A stretch of DNA of 64,000 bases from IMG/VR virus record IMGVR_UViG_3300008117_004020, positions 1 to 64,000 of that record; one strand, written 5' to 3'. The first letter of the stretch is position 1. Every line of letters starts with the position of its first letter. The DNA comes from a virus. Below are positions 5,757 to 57,074 of the stretch, one piece after another. The position numbers and the translations under genes are program-made. The notes under the pieces were generated by a model. It was not told where the DNA came from and did no database searches. It saw only the letters and a program-made list of their open reading frames with translations.

Positions 5757-7382
5757 TTAGAATGAACCTCCAGTGATAGGATTGCGCATAACAATCTTCA
5801 ACACTTTGGTAGGATCTTTTACCCAGATAGCTGGCATAGTCTGAGTCATGAACACTCTATAACCATTGAATTGTCCACTAGACTGGAAGCCTTGTGTACG
5901 ACCCATATAGTCCATAGTACCATTTTGATAGAACCACTTCAGTTGGTTATCCCAACCCAACTTCAACAAGTAGATGTTGTCATTAGTGTTATCAGTGATA
6001 TCAAAGATGATAAAGTTATAAGATGACAGAGGGAAACCATCAATGATTGGATTCTCAATATCATTAGTGTGTACATTATCAAACGCAGGATTCAAAACAA
6101 ACTGAATGTTTGCCAAGAATGGGATGGTGTAGCTAGTGTAAGCATATCCAAAGTTCAAGTCCATGCCCTGACCAGTGATAGCACCAATCTCAGAAGCATT
6201 GATAATCAAACCACTGTTGATAGCCTCTTTCTTAATAGCTTCATTAACCATTCTCATACCACCCATACCAGTCTGAACAACCAGCTTGCGCTTAGGATCA
6301 GGTCCTTTGAACTCCACACGACCATTGAAGAAGTTGAAGATCTCAGACTTAAACAGATCCAAGTTAAAGCTAGATTTGTTGTAGATGCGCTTGTAAGAGT
6401 TATCCAACTGCTTCCAAAGACCTACAGACAAACGAATATCATCTGGACCATCTTGCTTAACACGACCACCATGTCCCCACATCAAGTAGGTCTCAATGTC
6501 AGTAGCAATCTTAGTGAGGTGAGCAGCTTCCAAGCTAGTCAAGAATGTACGTGAAAGTGTACCACCTTGGATAGCACGCTTAACATACTCTTTACCCATC
6601 TTAGCAGCCAGACCTTCCAAGTTTGTGATAGAAGGATCATTGCTCTTGTCAAAGTTACGCCAGATTTCAATAACTGGAACAGAACCATCATTTTGCATAC
6701 CACCCTTCATCATCAAGTCAGCACGACTAGAAATGCTATAGTGTACGTGAGCTTCAGCTCCTCCTACATAGTTGTAGAACTCCCTGAAACCAGCGCCATA
6801 TGCACCAATGTCAGAGAAACGCTCACCATATTCACCACGCGCAGAACCTTTGCGGAAGAACTTGGTACCAATTTTCAAATACTTGTCACCATCCAACCAC
6901 TTAGTGTTGTCGTTGTTAACAAGCTGTACAGTGTAAATTACACCATCAGTCAAAGGAACGATGTCTTCTGTAGGAACAACATACAATTCCACGCCATTGT
7001 ACTTATCATAAGTGATGATATCACCATGACCAAATACACGCCTGTTCATTTTAATTTTAAATGTTTGACCATCAATACCCAATTGAGCACCAGGAGTTTC
7101 AATGTTCTCAACGATGTAAGGAAGATCTTGAGAAACTGGAACTTGCCATTTGTACTCTCCGCGAGCATTGTCAACCATAATTACATTCTTGCCACCAAAG
7201 CTAGACATTTGGTACAAAGGCATTTCTACCTTTTGCGCCATTGCCCAAAGATCAACTGGACCCATATCTGTAGGTTCAGCAGACTTCAGCATGTTTACTA
7301 GGTGGTAAGAATCTACGTGTGAGCTAGCTTGGTAGCTGGTATCCCGTAGAAATATACCATTGTTTAAAACTGGAGTTGCCAT
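5757..7382 (-). CDS. Major capsid protein
   Basis: A 541-residue protein in the slot after the portal and scaffold genes. The sequence (start MATPVLNNGIFLRDTSYQAS; later MSSFGGKNVIMVDNARGEY, and GNAGMGG-type loops such as VVQTGMGGMRMVNEAIK) is that of crAss-like capsid proteins with the HK97 fold. It forms the icosahedral shell. Codon choice is more GC-rich than neighbouring accessory genes, in keeping with very high expression. No cleavage site can be judged by eye. Confidence 0.85.
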   Translation of the reverse strand: MATPVLNNGIFLRDTSYQASSHVDSYHLVNMLKSAEPTDMGPVDLWAMAQKVEMPLYQMSSFGGKNVIMVDNARGEYKWQVPVSQDLPYIVENIETPGAQLGIDGQTFKIKMNRRVFGHGDIITYDKYNGVELYVVPTEDIVPLTDGVIYTVQLVNNDNTKWLDGDKYLKIGTKFFRKGSARGEYGERFSDIGAYGAGFREFYNYVGGAEAHVHYSISSRADLMMKGGMQNDGSVPVIEIWRNFDKSNDPSITNLEGLAAKMGKEYVKRAIQGGTLSRTFLTSLEAAHLTKIATDIETYLMWGHGGRVKQDGPDDIRLSVGLWKQLDNSYKRIYNKSSFNLDLFKSEIFNFFNGRVEFKGPDPKRKLVVQTGMGGMRMVNEAIKKEAINSGLIINASEIGAITGQGMDLNFGYAYTSYTIPFLANIQFVLNPAFDNVHTNDIENPIIDGFPLSSYNFIIFDITDNTNDNIYLLKLGWDNQLKWFYQNGTMDYMGRTQGFQSSGQFNGYRVFMTQTMPAIWVKDPTKVLKIVMRNPITGGSF

Positions 7383-8749: not shown

Positions 8750-11482
8750 TTACTTCTTCTTTTTACTATTGTCTGGTTTGTCGTATTTATTCTTGTTAGT
8801 TCTAGCAATCTGCAATTGTTTGTCAGCAATACGTTCTCTAGCAGATATCTCTCTTTCTTTTAGATTGTTAGTCTCACGCTGAGAAATTTGCTTGTTAACT
8901 TCCCTCTCTCTATCTAAATTCATTTGCTCTCTGTAGTTCTCTTGCTTTTGAATATTCTCCATTGCATCTTGATAGTCAGACATTTGATTTTGGTTAATAT
9001 CTGCCATTGAACCATATCCTGCAGATTTAATCTGAGAAACAAGAATATTATTTTGTCTGTCTTTCTCAGCCTCTTCAGCTTTAAACTGCATCTCCATTTG
9101 CTTTTGTTTCTCTTGAGAAGCCAGAAGCTCTTGTTGCATTTGCTGTTGATGCTGCTGTTCTTGTTGTTTTTGAGCAAGTACTTTTTCTTCAGATGATTTA
9201 AGTACACCTGTAAGTTCAGCAATAGATTCAGATTTAATAACATTGCCAAGGTCATAAATAGATGCGCCTGTAGTATTATTCTGAATAGCAAGTTGTTTAA
9301 GTTGCTCTAACACTGTTCTATGATTGCTCTTAGTACTAGCAAATATGTTAAACTCTCTAGCCAATAGATTAACTCCATTAATTTCAAAGTTGACCTTTTC
9401 CTCAGCTGATGTCATATACTGAAGTCTCACTGAAGGTTTCTTAGAATGATAATACTGAGCTAAGTCAGTTCTCATCTGATGCACCCTAGGCATTAGATAG
9501 TCAGTGTGCTGGACAAAATAATGTTCTGTCTGCGCGTGCGAGTTGACAACAGCTTGTTCAATACCCATAGCTGTTTGTTGCCCCACCACTTCTCCTAATC
9601 TCTGTGGAGAAATTCCTATCGTTTCAAAAGCTTGTTGTTTAAAATATGTAGCCAACTGTATCCTAGAAAGCAAACGCTGGGTTTGTTCAAGATTCAACAC
9701 TTGGTAGTGTTGGAAGTTTAGAGCATTCTCTGTATTGGTGATGCTTGTATCTAAAGCCAGCATCTGGAAGTTCTTCATTGCTACATATGCCTTAGAAAGA
9801 TTATGTTTTCCCCAATCTTCTCCCATAGAATGTCTAGGTAGAGCATTCTGGTCTAACATAATCACTGTACCCAACTCATCTACCAGGATGTCAGCTATCT
9901 GATTGTTTACAATGTTATAACCAATCTGGAATGGTTTCATTAAATCCACCAAGCTCACTGACCTAGTATTACGATCTGAGAATACAGATCCTTCCACTGG
10001 CAGTTTGCATCCATAAATAGTGCTGTCTCCTTTAAACTGGAATGGAAGCTTCTTTACATCAAGATAGATGGGAGCAAGTCCTCCTGGATTATTCATACCC
10101 CAGAATGATGGTCTGTTAGGACCAATCTTAACACCACCCCAAGTTTCATTAATCCATATCCAATCTATATGTTCACCAAAGACCAAGTTATCCTTGCTCT
10201 TTGTTTTAATTGTAGTTGTATTATAAAGAGGCTTTTCAGTGATTTTATATGTCTCGTCCACTATGTCTTGGACAATCTCTCCCTCATCAGTGATTCTAGT
10301 GAGATGCCCCACCTTACGCTGAGACTTCCAATAACATGTGGTAGCCCTTAGCATATGACTAGGACCATAGTCAAGAAAGTCTTCTCCCTCAGCCAATATC
10401 CATTGTACAATATCACCATTGTATGGCATATTCTCATATGCTGACAAAAACTGACGATATGCTAAAGATGGACCCTGAACATTGTATTCATGTGATCTTG
10501 TAGGATCATAGTAAGATCCATCATTTTGTAAACCTTGTATAGGAAGACCCACTGATCTTACAGGGTAGATTGCCTCTAGCGCCTCTAGTTGATCCTGAGT
10601 CATCTTATATCCATACTGGTCTATGATGTCAGAAACTGTAAGAATCTCAATCTTACCCACCCAGTTACCTTGAGAAATATATCTTGCACTTGGAGATTTA
10701 TGATAGAACGTCAACAGAGGATTCCACAATTCAATATCATAGTCATCCTCATTCATTTTGAAATGCCAGAACTCCCTGTCAGTGATTAACATATCTCTGA
10801 AAGCCATGTTCTCCAGCTCATACATGTGGAATCTTTCTTCATCCACTTTATGCTGGTGATTAGCCCATATCTCTACAATATTCCTATAATCTTTTTTAAA
10901 GAAACTCTCAATTTCAGGTAGTGACTTTAGACTAGAAGGATCCATCATCTTTTGACCATCCTCAGATTCTGGGTCTATTCCCTGTGCTATAAGATTCTCC
11001 ATCATCCTCTTCTCAGCTTTAGCAAGCAGAGTTTCCTCAATCATTGATCGTTTTTCCTCAAGCATCTCATTATATGAGATATCATCAACTGCTCTAAAAA
11101 TAATTTTAGAACTACGTTTTGCAAATTCTCCTGTGAGGACATTGATTACATTTGGAATGATTGGGTAAAATTTAAGTTCTAGCGCAGACTGATCTTCTTT
11201 AGTGAGGGTTTCAATAAGATCTGCATACTCATTGTCATCTTCTACTATATAGTCATTTCTATCAATAATACCTTTAGCAAGCTTGTAGTTTTTTAGAAGT
11301 TTTCTAGCATTTCTTCTAATCTGCTTAATACCCTGCCATTCCAGCCAGTCCATATTCCAAGCTCCCCACTCTCCATCTTTTTCTTTCCTAGGTAAAAATT
11401 GGATGGGCTGAGTGAGCGTACCCATCTTATTATATGACGTCTTTTTACCAGCTTTAAGGTCTAGGGCGTTATATACTTGCAT
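8750..11482 (-). CDS. Portal protein
   Basis: A 910-residue protein directly downstream of the large terminase, the usual place of the portal. N-terminal and central segments (WGAWNMDWLEWQG, MKPFQIGYNIVNNQIADILVDELG, IGISPQRLGEVVGQQTAMGIEQ) match the portal style of crAss-like phages; the last 170 residues are a Q/E/K-rich coiled coil that would line the internal barrel. It forms the dodecameric DNA channel. The ATG at 11482 is chosen over one at 11536 because the latter lies inside the upstream small gene. Confidence 0.85.
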   Translation of the reverse strand: MQVYNALDLKAGKKTSYNKMGTLTQPIQFLPRKEKDGEWGAWNMDWLEWQGIKQIRRNARKLLKNYKLAKGIIDRNDYIVEDDNEYADLIETLTKEDQSALELKFYPIIPNVINVLTGEFAKRSSKIIFRAVDDISYNEMLEEKRSMIEETLLAKAEKRMMENLIAQGIDPESEDGQKMMDPSSLKSLPEIESFFKKDYRNIVEIWANHQHKVDEERFHMYELENMAFRDMLITDREFWHFKMNEDDYDIELWNPLLTFYHKSPSARYISQGNWVGKIEILTVSDIIDQYGYKMTQDQLEALEAIYPVRSVGLPIQGLQNDGSYYDPTRSHEYNVQGPSLAYRQFLSAYENMPYNGDIVQWILAEGEDFLDYGPSHMLRATTCYWKSQRKVGHLTRITDEGEIVQDIVDETYKITEKPLYNTTTIKTKSKDNLVFGEHIDWIWINETWGGVKIGPNRPSFWGMNNPGGLAPIYLDVKKLPFQFKGDSTIYGCKLPVEGSVFSDRNTRSVSLVDLMKPFQIGYNIVNNQIADILVDELGTVIMLDQNALPRHSMGEDWGKHNLSKAYVAMKNFQMLALDTSITNTENALNFQHYQVLNLEQTQRLLSRIQLATYFKQQAFETIGISPQRLGEVVGQQTAMGIEQAVVNSHAQTEHYFVQHTDYLMPRVHQMRTDLAQYYHSKKPSVRLQYMTSAEEKVNFEINGVNLLAREFNIFASTKSNHRTVLEQLKQLAIQNNTTGASIYDLGNVIKSESIAELTGVLKSSEEKVLAQKQQEQQHQQQMQQELLASQEKQKQMEMQFKAEEAEKDRQNNILVSQIKSAGYGSMADINQNQMSDYQDAMENIQKQENYREQMNLDREREVNKQISQRETNNLKEREISARERIADKQLQIARTNKNKYDKPDNSKKKK

Positions 11483-11487
11483 GATTA

Positions 11488-11673
11488 TTAAATAGTTAGG
11501 GTGTAATTTTGATCCCAGCTCATTGTTGTAACCCAACTAGGATCTGTAGGAATATCATCAAAGTCATCAATTTCAACAGCCTCTTGTTCATCACTTAAAA
11601 GAATAAGTGCTTCTTCTAGATTGATGTGTCCCAGCTTAATTAACTTTTCAATTAGTTCTTTTTTAATTGACAT
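11488..11673 (-). CDS. Small acidic protein between terminase and portal
   Basis: A 61-residue protein, helical N-terminus (KKELIEKLIKLGHINLEEAL) and an acidic stretch EIDDFDDIPTDPSW. It overlaps the terminase stop by one base and ends 5 bases before the portal ATG, so it is translationally coupled. Function unknown. Confidence 0.7.
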   Translation of the reverse strand: MSIKKELIEKLIKLGHINLEEALILLSDEQEAVEIDDFDDIPTDPSWVTTMSWDQNYTLTI

Positions 11674-13880
11674 TATTTTATGTTTTTAAAGGCTGAACGA
11701 TGACTATTGTATTTGCTTCTTACAGTAGAAGAGTGACCCATATGTCTAAATGGGTTCAATTTTAATTTATGACTTTTTTCTGAATTTTCCAAATTATCCT
11801 TCTTAACTTCTACACGTTTAGCCAGTCCTCTGTTGGACTGCTGCACTTTAGCAAAAGCTATAAGAGCACAAAATGATACTATCCTATCCACGTTTAGTCC
11901 ATCCCTATATGCTTGCATTTCTTTAAGAAGCATTGGGTCAGGTATCCTCTCCACTCCATAAATAGTCTTCACTATTGTACCATCAGGTAGAGTTTCATGG
12001 TCTAATTCCTCTTTAAGAAATTCAATACCATATGATAGAATTGTGCCCTTGAATATTGTACCCACATTCTTCCATCCATACTCTTGGAATACATTCCTAT
12101 TAGCTCCTATGTCTTTGAGAAACAATATCATGTCTTTAGGAACCAGATACCTTTGTTTCTTCTTAGATATCATGTATTGGATGAACAGAGCTACGTTGTT
12201 CTCCACTATAGTCCAAGCATTATACCATTCTATAAGAAGCTCTAGTCTTTCATGTGTCTTGTTAATATCATCAAACCTACCGCACCAAGACGCCACTATC
12301 CTATCTCTCTCAATTGTGTTTTTAACCTTACCATCTCCTTCATCTTCAATCACTTCTACTGGATTCTTATATATGTAAATAGAACATAGAGAATCAGATG
12401 TAGTTGTCTTACCCTCACCTACAGGATCCACAGAGGCATAATACATCCCAAACGTAGGATCTTTATGTGGTCTTTCATATACACATATCACACCCTCTTT
12501 ATCTTCTGTCTTTTTAGAAATAGGGAAGTCCATGATGGGAAGCTTCCTGGATGAGGATGCTACAATCTTACCCTCTGCATTTCTAGACAGGTCCAAATAC
12601 TCAACTGAATAATCCTTATCTGAGATTCTTTGTAATTGTTTTGTAACTAAGTGGGAAGGGAACACACTCACTTTTCTAGAAGCAAATGCTTCTTCTATAT
12701 TGCGGGGGTGCTGAGATATTTCTAGTTGATATGCTTCTGGTGCTAAGTTCTTCTTTTGTTTAGTGAACTCCTCATCCAAAGCTTCTAATGCTTCTCCCAC
12801 TAGTGAATTACCATACCCATCTATGTATGGAGGCATAGACCACTGTTCTGGAATAAACAATCCTGTTTTTCCTAGGGTGCCTTCTGTATCTATAAGATTG
12901 GACTCCACCCCAAAAAATCCATTCTCTTCAGGATGTAAGATGTATTCTTTCAATGGTTCACACTGATCCAAGTCACCCACTGATCCTGCTGCAATAAACT
13001 GACCTGTGATGATGTGACCAGACTTAAGAGCTGGTTTCATGAATCCATAGGTGTCATTCATCTTAGGAGCAATACCAGCCTCCTCATGAAAGAAGTAGGT
13101 GACAGGACCACCCACACCATGTGTAGGATCTTTTTCAAAGGAGTAGAGATTTATAGTGGACTTTAGTCCCTTATATGTATCCCTACCATTTATCCTCACT
13201 TTAATCTGCTGTTGCCATGCTCCCACCTTGTCTGGTTCAGCTGGTCTATACCAAGCAGTGTGTTCATTAAGGAAGTTTTTATACTCATTCAAAAACTTCC
13301 ATGAACCTTTCTCATTTATATAGTCTTTTAGACTCGCTCCTATTTTTAACACTGCACCCTCTTCAAACCAATATTGGTTAATGAGTTTAGCCATGTGAAA
13401 ATAGGAGGAGGCTATCTGACGTTTTTTAAGGATAATGGCATGTTTATAATTAAGCTCAGCTAAATGTTCATATAGAGCCATGTGATACTGAGCATCTCTC
13501 ACTTTTGCAAAGTCAAATCTCTTTTCCTCCTTATCGTATATAGGCAGGAAATTAAGCCACATATAATAATCACGACTAATATACCAAGTGTTACCATTAG
13601 AGTGTACAATAATCCCCTTACGACATTTATTTTTCTGATCATCCCAGTAGGTAATGAAATCTTTTGTTTTAACTGGTGCAGAACAGTAATACTTTTGTCT
13701 TTGAAACTTTCTAGCTTCTGCATTAAATATGAGACTGCTTTCATCAAAATTGTATTGACCAGGTTCTTTAAATATAGAAGACACGAAGGCTTTAAACTCT
13801 TCTCTGGAAGAAAAGGTTGTTATACTCCATTCCCCATCTTTGTATGTAGGGATATCAGTATAATTATTTATTTCTTGCAT
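11673..13880 (-). CDS. terL: Terminase large subunit
   Basis: A 735-residue DNA-packaging motor. ATPase half: a divergent Walker A-like segment LKKRQIASS near residues 151-159 and Walker B VTYFFHEEAG near residue 260. Nuclease half: MYYASVDPVGEGKTTTSDS near residue 475 (first metal-binding Asp) and IVENN near residue 560. The missing GKS in Walker A is typical of the crAss-like terminase group as I know it. It cuts concatemers and pumps DNA through the portal. It overlaps the stop of the next upstream gene by 17 bases. Confidence 0.88.
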   Translation of the reverse strand: MQEINNYTDIPTYKDGEWSITTFSSREEFKAFVSSIFKEPGQYNFDESSLIFNAEARKFQRQKYYCSAPVKTKDFITYWDDQKNKCRKGIIVHSNGNTWYISRDYYMWLNFLPIYDKEEKRFDFAKVRDAQYHMALYEHLAELNYKHAIILKKRQIASSYFHMAKLINQYWFEEGAVLKIGASLKDYINEKGSWKFLNEYKNFLNEHTAWYRPAEPDKVGAWQQQIKVRINGRDTYKGLKSTINLYSFEKDPTHGVGGPVTYFFHEEAGIAPKMNDTYGFMKPALKSGHIITGQFIAAGSVGDLDQCEPLKEYILHPEENGFFGVESNLIDTEGTLGKTGLFIPEQWSMPPYIDGYGNSLVGEALEALDEEFTKQKKNLAPEAYQLEISQHPRNIEEAFASRKVSVFPSHLVTKQLQRISDKDYSVEYLDLSRNAEGKIVASSSRKLPIMDFPISKKTEDKEGVICVYERPHKDPTFGMYYASVDPVGEGKTTTSDSLCSIYIYKNPVEVIEDEGDGKVKNTIERDRIVASWCGRFDDINKTHERLELLIEWYNAWTIVENNVALFIQYMISKKKQRYLVPKDMILFLKDIGANRNVFQEYGWKNVGTIFKGTILSYGIEFLKEELDHETLPDGTIVKTIYGVERIPDPMLLKEMQAYRDGLNVDRIVSFCALIAFAKVQQSNRGLAKRVEVKKDNLENSEKSHKLKLNPFRHMGHSSTVRSKYNSHRSAFKNIK

Positions 13881-26764: not shown

Positions 26765-26777
26765 TTTCGTATATTTG
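26765..26777 (+). promoter_or_regulatory. tmRNA promoter (TAnnTTTG)
   Basis: TTTCGTATATTTG, containing the -7 box TATATTTG, ends 10 bases before the tmRNA 5' end. The same 13 bases lie upstream of the beta-barrel gene at 31220-31232. Confidence 0.7.
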
Positions 26778-26787
26778 CACTATACAA

Positions 26788-27256
26788 GGGGGTGACAGGT
26801 ATAGACCTGCATCTAAGAGGTATCATCACATGCAAGAGGTAGCCAATACTCAAAGCAATTGGTTAAAATTAAAGGACAACACTACTGTTGAACTTTCTGA
26901 GTATACCATTGACTCTCTGCTTGCAGAGTTGTCTGGTGCTGAGCTTGAATTAGCTTAGGTCAGAGGAGGAGCTATCCTTTGCAACAGAAAATAGCAAATG
27001 TAAAGACATAGGACCATTCCTGTGACACTGACCATCCAAGACTATATGATGTAAAAAGATAGCAAGTAATAGTTTCCTGGAGTTATACTAATAAACCAGG
27101 TGGTGGAGCTGGTGGCTTCTAAACCACTGGTTAGTTCCCTTACGGTGCAAAAATGTCTAGTTTTTGACACAGAAAACTTGACAAATTAGTACTAAGCATG
27201 TAAGAATGGTGGTATTGCTTGATGTAGACACAGGGGTTCGAATCCCCTCACCTCCT
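26788..27256 (+). ncRNA. ssrA: Transfer-messenger RNA (tmRNA)
   Basis: A 469-nt RNA. Acceptor stem GGGGGTG (26788-26794) pairs with CACCTCC (27249-27255) and has the G3-U70 wobble read by alanyl-tRNA synthetase. T arm AGGGG-TTCGAAT-CCCCT is canonical. Helix P2 pairs 26807-26827 with 27208-27227 over about 19 pairs. Pseudoknot PK1 uses GAG/CTC and CCAAT/ATTGG (26836-26862). A reading frame resumes 12 nt later and ends at TAG 26956. P5 pairs GGTCAG (26958-26963) with CTGACC (27028-27033). CCA is not encoded and the discriminator reads T. It should rescue stalled ribosomes and tag proteins. Confidence 0.88.
26875..26958 (+). other. tmRNA tag-peptide reading frame
   Basis: If translation resumes at GAC 26875, 12 nt after PK1, the tag has 27 residues, begins DNTTVELSEY and ends SGAELELA before TAG. 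The usual C-terminal LAA (or ALAA) is replaced by ELA preceded by glutamates. The resume codon is inferred from spacing; a later in-frame codon would give a shorter tag with the same end. Confidence 0.6.
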
Positions 27257-27297
27257 CAGACTTGTGTAGTTTTAAAGCAAAGGTCTCAGAGGTACAC

Positions 27298-27325
27298 GGT
27301 CCCTATGTCTATGGGGACCTTTTTA
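27298..27325 (+). terminator. tmRNA terminator
   Basis: GGTCCC pairs with GGGACC around a 10-base loop and is followed by T6, 42 bases past the tmRNA 3' end. Confidence 0.85.
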
Positions 27326-27344
27326 TTATTTAAAAAACAAGATT

Positions 27345-56198: not shown

Positions 56199-57074
56199 AT
56201 GACAGGTTTAAACGCAATGGAGAGGATGTTTTCAGCACCTCTCCCAGAAAAAACAGACAGCTATACACCAATAGCTCATGAAACTATAGACAAGATAACA
56301 AGAACAGCCCTCCAAGAGCAGGGCTTTGTGTTATCTAAAACATTTTATAGAAGTTCTACAGATGGTAGATTAGGACAAGCTGAGTATCACATTAACTATG
56401 GAGATGATCCAGAAATGGGACTGATGATTGCTTGGCAGAATAGTTACAACAAGCTTATATCATTTAAATACGCTATTGGAGCACACGTAATGGTGTGTTC
56501 TAATGGTGCTGTTTCAGGTGATATTGGAGCATATAAAAGAAAGCATACAGGTACAGCTGATGAAGAGGCTGCATCACAAATCAAGTATTATTTACAGAAT
56601 GCTAAGCAAATCTTTTTGAATTTAGTTAGAGACAGGGAGCATCTAAAGAAGATTGACTTATCTCCTGAAAGAATGGCTGAGATTATAGGTAGAATGTTTA
56701 TTCATAAAGAGATTATTACATCTACGCAAATCAATATCATGAAGCGTGAAATGGAAACTCCATCATTTGATTATGGTGTACCAGTACATAACGCATGGTC
56801 ATTGTATAATTTTGCAACACATGCTTTTAAAGAAGATAGTCCTAGAAACTGGATTTCTAGACATATAGATTTACATAGCTTCTTTGGAGAAGAGTTTGGA
56901 TTGGAAAGGTCTGAGGAATCACCTGAGCCTGTACAACCCACTTTGTTTCCTGAAGAAGCAACCCCTGAAGAAACCTCTCAACCACTTGAAGAAGTAATGG
57001 AAGAAGTCCCAGCTTTTTCATCCAATGAGGAGAGAGACTCTGACGAATTAATTGATTTGTTAGAAGATTTTTAA
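56199..57074 (+). CDS. DUF932-like protein with acidic tail
   Basis: A 291-residue protein. Residues 70-130 (IAWQNSYNKLISFKYAIGAH, MVCSNGAVSGDIGAYKRKHTG) resemble the phage/plasmid DUF932 family. The last 60 residues are very acidic and end DELIDLLEDF, like the C-terminal hook of ssDNA-binding proteins. It starts 1 base after the PolB stop, so it may be a polymerase-associated factor. Confidence 0.6.
   Translation: MTGLNAMERMFSAPLPEKTDSYTPIAHETIDKITRTALQEQGFVLSKTFYRSSTDGRLGQAEYHINYGDDPEMGLMIAWQNSYNKLISFKYAIGAHVMVCSNGAVSGDIGAYKRKHTGTADEEAASQIKYYLQNAKQIFLNLVRDREHLKKIDLSPERMAEIIGRMFIHKEIITSTQINIMKREMETPSFDYGVPVHNAWSLYNFATHAFKEDSPRNWISRHIDLHSFFGEEFGLERSEESPEPVQPTLFPEEATPEETSQPLEEVMEEVPAFSSNEERDSDELIDLLEDF

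Follow-up and report, generated by a model that had tools for sequence, protein, structure and literature searches.

Phages that carry their own tmRNA are uncommon but well known. Such genes occur in about 2.3% of 18,146 phage genomes (PMC9004378), described carriers include Bacillus phage G, the mycobacteriophages Bxz1 and Wildcat and the methylophage Melnitz (PMC4131195, PMC9004378), and both tmRNA and SmpB are found in huge phages from metagenomes (PMC7162821). The kind of gene described here is therefore not new, and an earlier note on this DNA, which called phage copies rare, holds only in that they are uncommon. Tags in the tmRNA database are most often 10 residues long (PMC11915505).

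We analysed bases 1-64,000 (the window) of a 118,147-base virus record, which may be incomplete, and describe a tmRNA gene within it. Like bacterial one-piece tmRNAs (RF00023), it comprises a tRNA-like domain with G3-U70, P2, PK1, a tag frame with a stop, a downstream pseudoknot region (judged by eye) and a terminator; unlike them, it is phage-borne, specifies a 27-residue tag, has U73 and lies in a record with no SmpB gene. It shares with the known phage tmRNAs that it is phage-encoded and presumably used with host SmpB, but unlike that of Melnitz, which is two-piece with a glutamine riboswitch, it is one-piece with a TATATTTG box. As in the huge phages with tmRNA and SmpB, ribosome-rescue parts are here phage-encoded in metagenomic DNA, yet the window phage is without SmpB and its genome measures about 118 kb. 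Other uncultured phage contigs, such as L003, L090-L092, L133, L160 and L201, encode tmRNAs whose PK1 is laid out in the same way and whose tags also have about 22-27 residues; these tags, of families B, C and E, are unlike the window's family A in sequence.

Results

Detection and layout of the tmRNA gene

The earlier note had proposed a complete phage-encoded tmRNA at 26788-27256, to be checked with Rfam and ARAGORN. The Rfam search returned a match to RF00023 at 26788-27259 (+) that spans model positions 1-374 (48.2 bits, E=5.5e-16), barely above the gathering score of 47, and that is the sole RNA-family match within the 64,000-nt window, while ARAGORN reported no tmRNA in either the whole window or the isolated gene. 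A search for the tmRNA 3'-end pattern retrieved eight viral contigs, and a looser pattern more than 100. The proposal is borne out by the full-length RF00023 match together with these relatives: taking those in about 25 viral contigs as proof, we regard 26788-27259 (+) as confirmed, on sequence grounds, to be a complete one-piece tmRNA gene (ssrA). Its features, with the evidence for each, are as follows.

26770-26777 (+): TATATTTG, putative -7 promoter box of the Bacteroidota kind (TAnnTTTG), 10 nt upstream of the tmRNA
26788-27259 (+): one-piece tmRNA gene (ssrA); Rfam RF00023, full model
26788-26794 (+): acceptor stem, 5' strand GGGGGUG; pairs with 27249-27255
26806-26833 (+): P2, 5' strand; duplex fold with 27196-27231
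26836-26864 (+): PK1, H-type pseudoknot; covariation in relatives
26836-26839/26848-26851 and 26841-26847/26858-26864 (+): PK1 stems S1 and S2, respectively
26875-26958 (+): tag reading frame, 27 codons and TAG, DNTTVELSEYTIDSLLAELSGAELELA; ten relatives with the same tag family
26959-27190 (+): downstream pseudoknot region; aligned sequences, judged by eye
27196-27231 (+): P2, 3' strand, starting GCAUGUAA; RF00023 match and duplex fold
27232-27248 (+): T arm, AGGGGUUCGAAUCCCCU; pairing in relatives
27249-27255 (+): acceptor stem, 3' strand CACCUCC, with U at position 70; pairing in relatives
27256 (+): position 73, U (T in DNA), end of the RNA body
27298-27326 (+): intrinsic terminator, GGTCCCTATGTCTATGGGGACC TTTTTAT; terminator scan

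Inside the gene lies an optional block (GACATAGG...TTCCTGTGACACTGACCATCCAAGACTATATGATGTAAAAAGA, window 26997-27060) that is conserved in L005, L008, L101, L108, L128, L138 and L187 and missing from L115, L117 and L164 (roughly 60-90 nt; aligned sequences, by eye).

Helices, 3' end and flanking signals

Mutations that break the helices in related genomes would have spoken against the gene; the relatives instead carry compensatory changes, far beyond shuffled controls. The acceptor stem, foreseen with its G3-U70 pair, is fully paired across 22 aligned relatives (154/154 cells), and while pairs 4, 5 and 6 change on both sides, G3-U70 is invariant in 22/22. The T arm, likewise as predicted, is paired in 110/110 cells, with two-sided change in 3 pairs. 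P2 is present and conserved among relatives but longer than the 19 or so pairs first given, its duplex having 25 pairs including G-U (-26.0 kcal/mol versus -11.8 ± 3.3 in shuffles). The claimed H-type pseudoknot proved to be PK1, for which pairing in 20 distinct relatives holds in 76/80 cells of stem 1 and 119/120 of stem 2, with two-sided changes in 3 and 5 pairs, respectively, the best of 2000 shuffles reaching 63 (stem 1) and 92 (stem 2). This alignment was hand-set in three length classes and so leans towards structure; sliding it by one or two columns makes pairing far lower. The last pair of stem 1 is a G-A mismatch in the window copy.

The encoded 3' end reads TCAG, with neither A73 nor CCA, and thus CCA must be added. 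Many tmRNA and tRNA genes do not encode CCA, which can be attached post-transcriptionally, so that the missing A73 and CCA do not exclude the gene from the tmRNAs. Position 73 is U in the window copy and A in all other aligned relatives except L001. Since U73 may weaken charging by alanyl-tRNA synthetase, charging of this copy may be lowered.

As to the gene having its own host-type promoter, the TATATTTG box is promoter-like and stands 9-10 nt upstream of the gene in the window and in three relatives (L117, L138 and L187), though not in the others. Across the genome TAnnTTTG occurs 159 times against 150 expected, which is no enrichment. The terminator claimed in the earlier note was found as a hairpin at 27298-27319 followed by TTTTT, in a scan that expects 0.7 by chance in the scanned region, and the tmRNAs of L101, L005, L108, L115, L117, L164, L090 and L091 are likewise followed by terminators, with similar loops.

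The tag reading frame

A frame had been expected to resume 12 nt after the pseudoknot; it resumes at 26875, after a gap of 10 nt, and runs to 26958 including its stop, encoding a tag of 27 residues (DNTTVELSEYTIDSLLAELSGAELELA) that the earlier note did not contain. Tags of this family (A) occur in ten more contigs (L005, L008, L101, L108, L115, L117, L128, L138, L164 and L187). Compared with L005, the tag codons differ by 7 synonymous changes and 1 non-synonymous change, dN is below dS in 15/15 pairs tested, and variable tag columns fall at codon positions 1, 2 and 3 in the ratio 10/4/16 (P=0.004). Upstream of the resume codon, A(-4)A(-3) is present in all family A members and U(-5) in 9/11. 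The frame is thus kept by selection across relatives and, as read from its codons, appears to be translated as well as selected.

Further families occur in other phage contigs: B (for example AKTKSERVAEGGAIIASLFAGRVAVAA) and C, which are similar, as well as E and others. The terminases present on family A contigs are 82-91% identical to that of the window, and contigs whose terminase is 77-80% identical have B- or C-type tags. A pattern scan for family A tag DNA found none in bacterial genomes of 84,980 species, and a second pattern scan of bacterial genome contigs matched three proteobacterial contigs. Neither the gene nor the tag has a sequence match in annotated phages, no isolated phage with such a tag was found, a paper search with the tag strings returned nothing, and comparison of the tag with other proteins of the phage gave nothing convincing.

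Further tmRNAs came to light in viral contigs. The sister phage G035 (terminase about 77% identical) has one at locus L230, 8889-9657 (tag DNTVDHQEMGAKIINMAFAGRRVMAAA), which a group I intron of 259 nt splits between T-loop bases 1 and 2; the intron ends follow the U / terminal-G rule, and once the two parts are joined, the T arm and an acceptor stem with G3-U70 are restored. Bacteria are known to have intron-form tmRNAs; no case of an intron-split tmRNA in phages was found in the papers searched. The long-tag family GNTFAKLEAVGLLxTEEVTVA is present in L103, L106, L109, L121, L122, L146, L147, L152, L156, L161 and others, on contigs of which some are 120-200 kb and of which none of those searched has SmpB, and long tags of yet another kind (such as SVAEADAFLKAAGFVDAELLAA) are found in L134, L140, L148, L151, L159 and L186, on phage contigs that reach 204 kb. 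In Mycobacterium phage SlimJimmy (OQ995428.1), 35 bases at 56450-56484 that bear no annotated feature are 97% identical to a tmRNA 3' end and are probably part of an unannotated tmRNA.

The carrier phage and the gene neighbourhood

Two proteins place the phage, and their closest named phages differ.

5757-7382 (-) and 11673-13880 (-): capsid and terminase

The terminase is 24-26% identical over 84-93% to those of Flavobacterium and gut crAss-like phages (an IMG/VR search with it gave at least 600 matching places), whereas the capsid protein is 29% identical to that of Leptolyngbya phage Lbo-JY46 and matches one crAss-like phage, csAssE-Sib, only in part. The giant late proteins have no PHROG match. 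The phage thus appears distantly related to the crAss-like group, its terminase and capsid pointing to different phages. The earlier note knew of no tmRNA in crAss-like phages; we found no report of one in Crassvirales among open-licence papers either, but the crAss-likeness here rests on the 24-26% identity of the terminase.

A strong Shine-Dalgarno motif precedes 0/91 genes; the sequence before the genes is rich in A at -11 to -14 and -3 to -5, a pattern that we take to be associated with Bacteroidota. The capsid match to a Leptolyngbya phage made a cyanobacterial host worth considering; such a host was set aside against the Bacteroidota-like start-site signals, and the Leptolyngbya phage has no detectable tmRNA, its T-arm match being a tRNA-Leu.

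The order AAA ATPase, DUF7192, two unknown genes, tmRNA and a small conserved gene is the same in L005, L101 and L108. The small gene is also present in sister phages without a detected tmRNA, which argues that the tmRNA is accessory. Indeed, several close relatives seem to do without it, although G035, first scored as lacking a tmRNA, has the intron-split form, so that the other absences are provisional. We also weighed the small gene as a tag-binding adaptor and rejected it, as it has no family match and occurs in relatives without a detected tmRNA. Since no SmpB was detected in the phage record or in any other crAss-type tmRNA contig searched, host SmpB would be needed. The record has no detected tRNA genes. 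Among 45 tmRNA contigs searched, only G054, the contig of L104, encodes SmpB (tmRNA at 8856-9284, minus strand); its tag (AKNNLPTVASNDSDFHMAIAA) seems unlike the others, and this contig may be bacterial DNA or a phage of another kind.

Discussion

The locus is likely a working phage tmRNA gene that provides accessory trans-translation through host machinery and adds a 27-residue tag, phage-type in that it matches tags of viral contigs. In favour stand the RF00023 match, a G3-U70 pair fixed amid covariation, the covariation of PK1, selection on the tag, the context of the resume codon, the -7 box, the terminators and the shared neighbourhood. Against it stand a score near the cut-off, the missing ARAGORN call, U73, the mismatch in PK1 stem 1 and the close relatives that apparently do without a tmRNA.

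The anatomy, covarying helices, selected tag frame, promoter-like and terminator elements and accessory place are legible in the DNA itself; for transcription, charging, use of host SmpB, ribosome rescue and the fate of tagged chains we infer the following course. The tmRNA would be transcribed from its own host-type promoter, trimmed by host enzymes, given its CCA and charged with alanine by alanyl-tRNA synthetase. Host SmpB would deliver it to ribosomes that have stalled on mRNAs broken during infection, where the phage-type 27-residue tag, instead of the roughly 10-residue tag of most bacteria, would be added to the unfinished chain and would probably still direct it to a protease. Because selection maintains the long tag, it is probable that the infecting phage provides a tag version of its own. 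That the phage may take over ribosome rescue, as the earlier note suggested, is a fair reading of the locus; its suggestion that host proteins are tagged is unsupported as a selective function, because trans-translation targets stalled ribosomes regardless of where the protein comes from.

The tags themselves raise the question of whether rescue works but gives the chains a different fate, such as slower decay, sparing of the host's protease or binding to some factor of phage or host origin, instead of serving as a simple degradation signal. The tags of these viral contigs are long (about 22-27 residues), fall into distinct families and are kept by selection, and those of family A end in LELA, LALA, VLA or LEVA, unlike the LAA or AA of typical ssrA tags. 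All nonetheless still end in small hydrophobic residues and alanine, the different long tags of sister phages end in VAVAA, and some bacteria (Mycoplasma, Chlamydia) also have long tags, so we hold such a fate to be unlikely. The broader idea that widespread environmental phages have their own long tag families, exchanged among relatives, that steer chains away from host ssrA degradation is likewise doubtful. It is very improbable that the phage RNA is a decoy that competes for SmpB, alanyl-tRNA synthetase or ribosomes and so blocks host trans-translation: expression in E. coli of the tRNA-like piece from phage DS6A does inhibit tmRNA (PMC11915505, PMC4131195), but a decoy could dispense with a reading frame, whereas selection acts here on tag codons, resume context and PK1. 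A decaying remnant of a host ssrA acquired by integration is extremely improbable, for although mobile elements often integrate in ssrA (PMC11915505) and U73 and the low score could be decay, the gene is complete at both ends and has its own terminator, the record lacks a PF00589 integrase, helices and tag are under selection across the phage lineage, and the bacterial genomes scanned lack family A tag DNA.

The crAss-related carrier, the long selected tags and the intron-split sister form are unreported as far as open-licence papers were searched. Routine annotation misses such genes: ARAGORN fails on the window copy and the Rfam model on the intron-split sister copy. Why phages carry tmRNA is unsettled, and an accessory tmRNA with selected long tags, of differing families in close relatives, would make that question testable through the fate of tagged proteins.
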